Source: Thiohalobacter thiocyanaticus
GTDB lineage: Bacteria > Pseudomonadota > Gammaproteobacteria > Thiohalobacterales > Thiohalobacteraceae
Assembly (NCBI RefSeq): GCF_002356355.1
Contig: NZ_AP018052.1
Location: 3,150,501-3,214,500, forward strand
DNA: 64,000 nucleotides
Reading direction: 5' to 3'
Shown: piece after piece, positions 61,132 to 64,000 of the stretch
Layout: the number at the start of each line of letters is the position of its first letter
Numbering within the stretch: position 1 is the first letter of the stretch
Made by a program: the position numbers and the translations under genes
The notes under the pieces: model-generated
The model's database searches: none
Seen by the model: the letters and a program-made list of their open reading frames with translations, nothing else
What the model was told of the DNA's origin: nothing

Positions 61132-61161
61132 CTGTGTGTCAGGATAAACTGTTACTGTCGT

Positions 61162-61875
61162 TTAGTACCGACGCCGCGCAATCCCGACCAGGCCCAGCAG
61201 GCCGGAACCGAACAGCCATACTGCCGCCGGCACCGGGATAGCAGAAGGCGGAATCACCTGATCCGGGTCGTTGACAAAACTCTCACTGCCGCCGCTGTCA
61301 AAGGCTATGACATGCATGCCCACACGCAGATCGCCTGAAATCAAATCAGCAATTATATCGTTGAAGGTTTTGCCGGTCTTGAGATCGAACACGACATCCA
61401 GCCATTCACCCGGGTTGACCCCCTTCTTGGGAGGCGGCGGATCAGACTCAGCCTTGAAATACCCTGTCACTTCAAACTTCGGGGTAATCGAATCACCACC
61501 CGGCAAATCCGGAGGACTTGCATCACCCGCTGTCCATGAATCACCCGCACTGTGACTCACGTCGGCTATACCAAGCAGTTCGCCATCATCGAAATAGACT
61601 TCGGTGATAGCTGAATCAGCCGACCCGGAATTATTGAAACGGAAATTAACCTGGTTTCCACCCGGATCAGTGACATCCACGGTCAGCTGGCTTTCACCGA
61701 TAGCGCAATCGCCCGAGTCGTTACCGGTGATGCACATGAAGTCCAGGCTGACCGCCGATACTGGCCCGGCGAATGCGAATGCAGCTACCGCCGCAAGTCC
61801 GCCGAGGAAACGGCGAGCCCAGTCCGACAAGCCGCTGCACGACCACAGCATATCCCTACTATTTTGATACTCCAT
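61162..61875 (-). CDS. VPLPA-CTERM sorting-domain exported protein
   Basis: 237 residues. A signal peptide (about 25-43, ending VSAVS) leads to a beta-rich mature region with few cysteines (CITGNDSGDC) and a proline-rich spacer (SDPPPPKKG). The C-terminus is a textbook exosortase signal: IPVPAAVWLFGSGLLGLVG followed by IARRRY. Such proteins are cleaved and handed to the surface or exopolysaccharide matrix by an exosortase, which is not in this window. The start is the ATG with GGAGGAG eight bases upstream. Confidence 0.88.
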   Translation of the reverse strand: MEYQNSRDMLWSCSGLSDWARRFLGGLAAVAAFAFAGPVSAVSLDFMCITGNDSGDCAIGESQLTVDVTDPGGNQVNFRFNNSGSADSAITEVYFDDGELLGIADVSHSAGDSWTAGDASPPDLPGGDSITPKFEVTGYFKAESDPPPPKKGVNPGEWLDVVFDLKTGKTFNDIIADLISGDLRVGMHVIAFDSGGSESFVNDPDQVIPPSAIPVPAAVWLFGSGLLGLVGIARRRY

Positions 61876-62154
61876 GGGTTTTTCTCCTCCAGGCAAGCCT
61901 GCTGTTGTTCTTGTTCGTTGGCGCTGTTGTCATTATTGCGCGCATCTGGCATCCGAGTTGTTGATTGCGGATGCAATTTTTACATTGACTTTCAAGCAAT
62001 ATTTATTCCCGGCAATGTTTTATCTTGAAACACAGTGGGTTATGCGTTACGTCAGAGATAGCACTACCCGGACTTGCAAACTTTTCCGACATGTTCGTGC
62101 GACGGAGAACGGATAAGCCGGAAATAATTATTCAAAAAATATAGTGGGTTGCAT
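61876..62154. other. Gene-free AT-rich interval upstream of the VPLPA-CTERM gene
   Basis: This is the most AT-rich stretch of the window. It contains no supported gene. A weak dyad TTTCAAG/CTTGAAA (61990-61996, 62034-62040) and a repeated AGTGGGTT (62033-62041 area and 62143-62150) are seen. I looked for a sigma-54 promoter toward the minus strand and found none. The promoter of the gene ending at 61162 must lie here. Confidence 0.5.
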
Positions 62155-62537: not shown

Positions 62538-63627
<1,090 letters not shown>

Positions 63628-63711: not shown

Positions 63712-63815
63712 GGCAAGGCCACGGACTTGATGCCGGAACGCCCGGGAGGCATCCCTGCAGGCTTGGCGGCCGCGTCCCTGCGGCCGACATCCGGCATCAA
63801 GTCCGTGGCCTTGCC
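63712..63815. repeat. Perfect 26-bp inverted repeat with 52-base centre
   Basis: The arms 63712-63737 and 63790-63815 are exact reverse complements (outer end GGCAAGGCCACGGAC, inner end TTGATGCCGGA). The centre is GC-rich and contains a smaller CGGCCGC/GCGGCCG pairing. It has no T-run and no obvious gene. It occupies the interval between rsmD and the partial VPLPA-CTERM gene. Confidence 0.8.
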
Positions 63816-63888: not shown

Positions 63889-64000
63889 TCAGGCGGTCTC
63901 GTGGCGGCGCAGCCGGGTGCCCAGCAGTGCCAGCCCCGACCCCATGAGCCAGACCGCCGCCGGGACCGGTACGGCGCTGATGGCCGTGGTCCCGGGCGTG
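63889..64000 (-). CDS. VPLPA-CTERM sorting-domain protein, C-terminal end only
   Basis: The minus-strand frame reaching the stop at 63889-63891 reads AISAVPVPAAVWLMGSG then LALLGTRLRRHETA. This is an exosortase sorting signal: the VPxPAAxWL motif, a hydrophobic helix and an Arg-rich tail. The rest of the gene lies beyond the window. It is a second exosortase substrate about 2 kb from the one at 61162. Confidence 0.8.
   Translation of the reverse strand, partial: TPGTTAISAVPVPAAVWLMGSGLALLGTRLRRHETA

Follow-up and report, generated by a model that had tools for sequence, protein, structure and literature searches.

A dispersed gammaproteobacterial repeat with a common two-hairpin core, copy-specific arms and putative CsrA/RsmA-type loops

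Described repeats and RNAs closest to the element

Members of a MITE family share their terminal repeats, and attC sites conserve their outer boxes and vary inside. CsrA/RsmA is a global post-transcriptional regulator, and the CsrB/CsrC and RsmX/Y/Z RNAs are encoded by one or few genes per genome. REPs, in the parts of PMC2817692 and PMC3733652 available to us, are 20–40 bp long and combine a GTAG or CGTC tag with a conserved palindrome. The available part of PMC6849547 gives CANGGANG as the motif for RsmA, RsmE, and RsmI. According to the accessible sections of PMC7652899, a CsrA dimer bridges sites that are 10–63 nt apart, and the CsrA SELEX consensus is RUACARGGAUGU.

The usual definition of a dispersed palindromic repeat rests on its conserved palindrome or ends. 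In the element described here, the ends vary around a common centre. The copy that led to it lies near the end of the window, the whole stretch of 64,000 nucleotides of Thiohalobacter thiocyanaticus that was analysed. Like the REP, BIME, and REPIN sequences associated with RAYT, as far as these are covered in the parts of PMC2817692 and PMC3733652 at hand, the element is short, dispersed, palindromic, non-coding, chromosomal, and gammaproteobacterial, and is found mainly beside gene 3′ ends. Unlike REPs, it consists of a 52-nt two-hairpin core with no fixed tag and with copy-specific arms of about 25–33 bp. No REP tag emerged from the column counts over 83 rows, in which both the core ends and the arms are variable; GTAG precedes the second hairpin in part of the copies only, and the others have GTAC.

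With MITEs, the element shares its small size, its lack of genes, and its inverted terminal arms, and some copies are contained in longer MITE-like units (genomes G008 and G077). However, its terminal arms are variable outside a few subfamilies, and it is the centre that is common. The likeness to CsrB/CsrC and RsmX/Y/Z lies in a hairpin-loop GGA matching CANGGANG (PMC6849547, in part) and in two sites spaced within the reach of a CsrA dimer (PMC7652899, in part). The element differs from these RNAs in being dispersed, in having just two hairpins, borne by a very long stem, and in lacking a preferred gene orientation. Integron attC sites also keep a structure while the arm sequence varies, and there too the folded single strand matters; in the element, by contrast, conservation lies inside and variation in the outer arms, as judged from the 83-row counts. 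In its dispersal the element resembles a REP or MITE, and in its loops a CsrA-site RNA. A search of the open-access literature returned no description of it, and a term search of the RepRanger paper (PMC12306157) gave no occurrence.

The window copy and the dispersed family

The repeat is located in the gap between a VPLPA-CTERM-like gene, the stop codon of which occupies 63889–63891 on the minus strand, and rsmD, which is followed by coaD and then by a YfhL-type ferredoxin gene. The features of the locus are as follows.

63025–63627, minus strand: rsmD, downstream gene, context only (TIGR00095, 173.8 bits, cut-off 117.5)
63712–63737, plus strand: left arm of the outer stem P1 (inverted-repeat search)
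63738–63789, plus strand: 52-nt core, member of the dispersed family (gap-free alignment with 42 members and covariance model)
63740–63762, plus strand: hairpin H1 of the core (position by alignment)
63750–63757, minus strand: CANGGANG motif in the H1 loop (CAGGGATG), putative CsrA/RsmA-type site (motif from PMC6849547, in part)
63764–63789, plus strand: hairpin H2 of the core (alignment position and fold of both strands)
63773–63780, minus strand: CANGGANG motif in the H2 loop (CAGGGACG), putative CsrA/RsmA-type site (motif from PMC6849547, in part)
63790–63815, plus strand: right arm of the outer stem P1 (inverted-repeat search)
63889–64000, minus strand: 3′ end of the VPLPA-CTERM-like gene, which continues past the window (TIGR03370, 21.3 bits, cut-off 25.35)

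An earlier sequence-only reading had reported a perfect 26-bp inverted repeat around 52 bases. The repeat search returned exactly this, with 26-nt arms of 100% complementarity at 63712–63737 and 63790–63815, separated by 52 nt. About 1e-8 such arm pairs are expected in a random window (64,000 positions × ~500 spacings / 4^26). The same reading had remarked on the lack of a T-run, and inspection by eye confirmed that none follows either arm; the terminator scan, which allows loops of 3–8 nt only, reported no intrinsic terminator at the repeat. Elsewhere in the window, a second VPLPA-CTERM-like gene (61162–61896) and the one at 63889–64000 onward bracket the fdx-coaD-rsmD group, and a clear intrinsic-terminator pattern is present at 61135–61110 on the minus strand, after the gene at 61162–61896.

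Folded as RNA, a 128-nt stretch reaches −82.5 kcal/mol on the plus strand and −87.7 kcal/mol on the minus strand, with z-scores of −7.29 and −7.36, respectively, and none of 200 shuffles is as good. The predicted fold contains two further hairpins inside the centre, which is therefore more than a GC-rich loop. The window core is written in the TCC-loop orientation, and the GGA strand is the minus strand here. The window core carries both loop motifs and scores 77.1 bits (E = 5.7e-17 in the window) against covariance model R1, of which it is one of the 43 training rows. By eye, its H1 stem is partly decayed, and the window copy is probably an old, isolated member of the family. A known RNA family was considered and set aside: no Rfam family exceeded its threshold in the window, and a search of 351 bases at E ≤ 10 gave only six sub-threshold matches to unrelated families.

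The T. thiocyanaticus genome (G000, one contig of 3.23 Mb) contains the element once by sequence and once by the covariance model. For the 17-nt middle of the arm, the genome holds no further match with fewer than two mismatches; besides the two arms there are one match with two mismatches and 63 with three. A control with reversed patterns gave 17 and 12 matches against 33 and 33, so that the arm matches number about twice the control. Further arm copies in this genome were rejected, none of these matches being close. A REP-like repeat that starts with GTAG has about 30 listed matches in the genome, for example at G000:C1 503147–503226, 1063297–1063376, and 2135868–2135955.

Both congeners compared carry the element at the same locus. 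It is complete in G002; in G001 it is truncated within the core, where the contig ends. The region is 82.8% identical between G000 and G002 over a 1,856-column alignment. All retained arm bases (51 of 52) are identical; the missing one is the innermost base of the right arm, which a 2-nt gap removes from G002. The core, by contrast, shows clear divergence. At another locus of G002 (L240), for which no empty site could be read, a copy of the GTAG-starting repeat adjoins the element. In more distant relatives the query finds matches to its centre only, in several of them at more than one place.

At least 120 stretches in species genomes matched a degenerate pattern written for the latter half of the core. 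By their record titles, the matches listed are nearly all from Gammaproteobacteria and include Marinobacter, Thioalkalivibrio, Methylomonas, Nitrococcus, Sedimenticola, Chromatiales, and many bins. Of 369 genomes sampled from the class, 83 contain the element by a covariance model of 27 pairs at E ≤ 0.01; at most 13 candidates were scored per genome, and copy numbers are lower bounds. Plasmids, phages, and E. coli gave no match to a 72-nt composite query at E 1e-5, and viral contigs contained no stretch with the exact degenerate pattern. A phage or plasmid origin was accordingly dropped, nothing having been found in plasmids, phages, or viral contigs at the sensitivity used. The element is a dispersed chromosomal family of Gammaproteobacteria.

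This distribution bears on a local duplication accident, which the sequence-only reading had tied to a repeat that is single-copy and absent from close relatives. The arms are indeed single-copy in the genome, but the same locus is occupied in both congeners. At the level of the class the idea fails: the core belongs to a class-wide family, and a local accident is ruled out.

The P1 arms enclose a three-way junction with the hairpins H1 and H2. The 43 cores of model R1, namely 42 chosen from the 61 distinct arm-filtered rows (arms of at least 10 bp required) and that of the window, align without gaps at 52 nt. In these sequences 95.2% of the cells are paired, compared with 73.6% in shuffles, and all ten P1 pairs have changed on both sides; controls with slid pairing collapse. 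A set of 83 distinct rows, orthologues included, gives 96.3% pairing and a covariation score of 0.649, against 0.176. The conserved letters are the unpaired ones: the stems covary and the loop letters stay fixed. The computed picture is of a core structure held by two-sided changes and of arms that are near-perfectly paired and differ between copies. The earlier suggestion of a MITE-like or structured RNA element therefore stands as to a dispersed unit with a structure kept by covariation. It does not hold for an ordinary MITE, since the conserved part is the centre rather than the terminal repeats and the arms vary from copy to copy.

Both hairpins follow the pattern C-N-TCC-N-T-G on the TCC strand. 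None of the 83 rows departs from TCC in H1, and the corresponding three letters of H2 are conserved in 81, 83, and 83 of these rows. The two N positions of the loops vary in these rows, matching the free positions of the CsrA/RsmA motif. As the pattern had prescribed the H2 loop and the model had been built on it, each loop was also checked in copies found by way of the other. The H1 loop is kept in 100 of 115 distinct pattern matches listed, for which the pattern did not require H1, and the H2 motif is present in 104 of 106 copies selected on H1 only, many of these loci having been fetched by the covariance model or by similarity. The presence of two motifs in 114 of 115 copies is circular, as the finder demanded both loops, and carries no weight as evidence.

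On the opposite (GGA) strand, both loops read CANGGANG, giving the element at least two loop GGA motifs of the kind expected of a CsrA/RsmA-binding RNA. The two sites are 23 nt apart, start to start. Many H1 copies resemble the SELEX consensus RUACARGGAUGU, 16 exactly and 40 with one mismatch, in counts that lean on a copy finder already requiring both loops. At three loci of a sister genus (L304, L307, and L310), H1 contains another two-hairpin unit, unlike the core and about 41 nt long, and in Marinobacter locus L042 an unrelated insert lies in H1.

Arms and element-free sites

Of 121 matches listed, 111 had enough flanking sequence for the arms to be measured. The longest ungapped helix adjoining the core has a median length of 26 bp, is free of mismatches in 58 of the 111, and is 8 bp or shorter in 28 of them. 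These short-arm matches include truncated, nested, and bulged copies as well as two chance matches in Actinobacteria (L043 and L082). Arm length peaks at 27–30 bp, and 143 of the 178 arms of at least 14 bp measure 25–33 bp.

Identical cores mostly bear unrelated arms. In 83 of 117 identical-core pairs, which are mutually dependent and include orthologues, arm identity is at most 0.4 (rounded), whereas random pairs average 0.33; the terminal repeats that MITE family members would share are missing from these pairs. In one Thioalkalivibrio genome, five loci (L080, L367, L368, L369, and L370) have identical cores and different arms of 28–33 bp. In G099, the identical cores L233/L236 and L234/L235 likewise have different arms. 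The exceptions are arm-sharing subfamilies in G099 (L220–L231), G077, and G008. The innermost five base pairs of the arms are often common (GCGGG, GGGAC, CAGGT, or AAGAC), as if they travelled with the core. Since identical-core pairs mostly have unrelated arms, the arms seem to be remade at each locus. Arms that are copy-specific and yet pair almost perfectly within a copy require some mechanism by which matching arms are written or rewritten. Locus L380 (G395:C229:8000–8900) contains tandem half elements, each a left arm and the start of a core, beside a complete copy.

The history of the arms is inconsistent between orthologous pairs. They are unchanged between G000 and G002, and other pairs have many matched changes. 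Between L089 and a relic in L112, with a flank identity of 85.5%, four of 28 arm positions have changed, all matched in both arms by eye, and the Marinobacter orthologues L042 and L113 display many more such changes. These matched changes suit an old REP/MITE-like family, whole palindromes of which moved long ago by ordinary transposition; its cores would stay alike through selection or gene conversion, and template switching at replication (quasi-palindrome correction) would preserve the match between its drifting arms. The arm-sharing subfamily of G099 and the MITE-like copies of G008, which share long arms and are cleanly absent from G010, fit such a history as well. On the other hand, identical cores with arms at random level (83 of 117 pairs) would demand that cores be homogenised much more quickly than arms drift, and G000 and G002 show the reverse, the arms being kept and the core changed. 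Neither the peak of arm length at 27–30 bp nor the strand-biased mismatches described below agree with this history, the latter not being predicted by correction alone. We regard it as improbable.

Element-free sites in relatives were found for L241, L065, L112, L116, L371, L365, and the MITE-like L245. No clear direct target-site duplication is visible at these sites, several of which may be losses. Three of them (L241, L116, and L371) retain the outer portion of a single arm. Such a lone outer arm could reflect an inverted copy made at insertion, or loss of the palindrome through slippage. An inverted target duplication is hinted at by one site (L241 of G002, compared with G000 and G001). 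The stretch missing at L116 is bounded by a 3-bp direct repeat, and for L116 versus G389 and L371 versus G396, loss between short direct repeats explains the junction about equally well.

The core is inverted between its arms in L374 relative to L413 (sister genomes) and in L192 relative to L193 of G077; these are draft assemblies, and the inversion could be an assembly effect. In one intergenic gap common to two sister species, L246 of G010 and L277/L300 of G008 have different arms and opposite core orientations. Loci L244 and L245 of G008 comprise a 182-bp MITE-like unit with ends TATTGAGACTTACA that carries the core, and the unit is cleanly absent from the orthologous site G010:C288.

Gene neighbourhood, candidate working strand, and spread

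Both neighbouring genes were called for 78 of 115 independent copies, with orientations taken from a simple longest-ORF heuristic. Tandem gene pairs account for 24 and 22 copies in the two directions, 18 copies lie between convergent genes, and four lie between divergent genes; in 10 of the 78, a neighbour is more than 500 nt away. The element favours the 3′ sides of genes and has no orientation preference. Because its orientation to the neighbouring genes is neutral, the GGA strand cannot in general stem from read-through of an upstream gene, and the idea of such read-through at every site is not supported.

The scarcity of divergent gaps (4/78) and the frequency of convergent ones (18/78) would be expected if the stems were terminators or 3′-protecting hairpins of single genes with the core inserted into their loops. 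A short hairpin, identified by eye, is also found at three element-free sites (those in G001, for L089, and in G396), but such hairpins may be remains of lost elements. The stem of the window copy has no T-run behind it by eye, and the arm lengths peak at 27–30 bp. A collection of native terminators would not show such a peak. Hairpins of this origin are very improbable.

Mismatches inside the helix were counted on 115 arms less than 70% alike. The TCC strand has 98 A·C and 30 G·T mismatches, which correspond to 98 G·U and 30 A·C on the GGA strand (binomial p = 1.3e-9). The trend reverses outside the arms, at 153 to 229. The bias is found in three gene settings: 19:5 with the neighbours against the core, 19:8 with them along the core, and 18:4 in convergent gaps. 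Among the rarer mismatches of all 178 arms, read as complements on the GGA strand, G·A (47) and G·G (39) exceed C·T (15) and C·C (4). Arms that lack wobble and are shaped at the DNA level only had been considered; this description is true of the TCC strand, and it was rejected as the GGA strand is enriched in wobble. The pattern agrees with selection on a folded GGA strand; mutation biased by strand is an alternative source.

Three results point to the GGA strand, the minus strand here, as the working one: its loops read CANGGANG, its arm mismatches are G-U rather than A-C, and its stems covary while its loops stay fixed. We tentatively favour, at a little short of an even chance, a propagating element whose GGA-strand RNA is a long hairpin presenting a site for a CsrA dimer. 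The GGA strand would work as RNA, form the long stem, and offer its two putative CsrA/RsmA sites to one dimer; these genomes presumably possess a csrA gene, as we assume from general knowledge. The core would propagate from place to place by means of a moving enzyme, and the arms would be created or exchanged locus by locus, with templated correction or selection maintaining their match afterwards. In the orientation of the window copy, read-through from the VPLPA-CTERM-like gene would carry the GGA loops. CsrA binding, transcription, the core-moving enzyme, and the making of arms are steps that we infer.

G·T is also more stable than A·C in single-stranded DNA, which is a counterpoint to an RNA. 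The main rival is a single-stranded DNA element, in which the GGA strand is the one that folds and moves, an HUH transposase (Y1, IS200/IS605-like) acting in trans recognises the hairpins, and the CsrA likeness is incidental. Two similar hairpins in direct orientation, a strand-specific tolerance of mismatches, and the lack of a preferred orientation to genes would all be at home in such an element. The T. thiocyanaticus genome supplies a candidate source of the enzyme, with two Y1 matches, one over the family cut-off (L160) and the other below it (L161). Against this stand the inspected Y1 gene at L160, which by eye is flanked by an unrelated inverted repeat, the lack of any gene seen between the two core halves, and the absence of REP/RAYT-type tags from the core consensus. 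The loops, moreover, match the CsrA/RsmA motif down to its free positions. A mobile single strand of this kind is less likely than the RNA, yet a serious possibility.

To return to the CsrA-docking RNA, a further version, which would make it a type of mobile element new to the literature, is that the twin-hairpin core spreads through chromosomes without a gene of its own and gives each copy arms of about 29 bp made at the site, while the GGA-strand RNA docks CsrA/RsmA. Taken as a whole, this is doubtful, if still a serious possibility. The docking may be part of the spread, or may tap the global regulator of the host. The strand-biased mismatches and the fixed CANGGANG loops offer a direct, testable link to CsrA/RsmA. 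If the link is true, a good part of the Gammaproteobacteria would carry unannotated CsrA-type docking hairpins, and some genomes would hold more than a dozen.

At L160 (about 1359–2180; G000:C1:661838–662164), the Y1 transposase gene lies between inverted copies of AGGGGTCGGTGACAACTGAG, as judged by eye. The arrangement is like that of the TIR-flanked tyrosine transposases described in the available part of PMC3733652.
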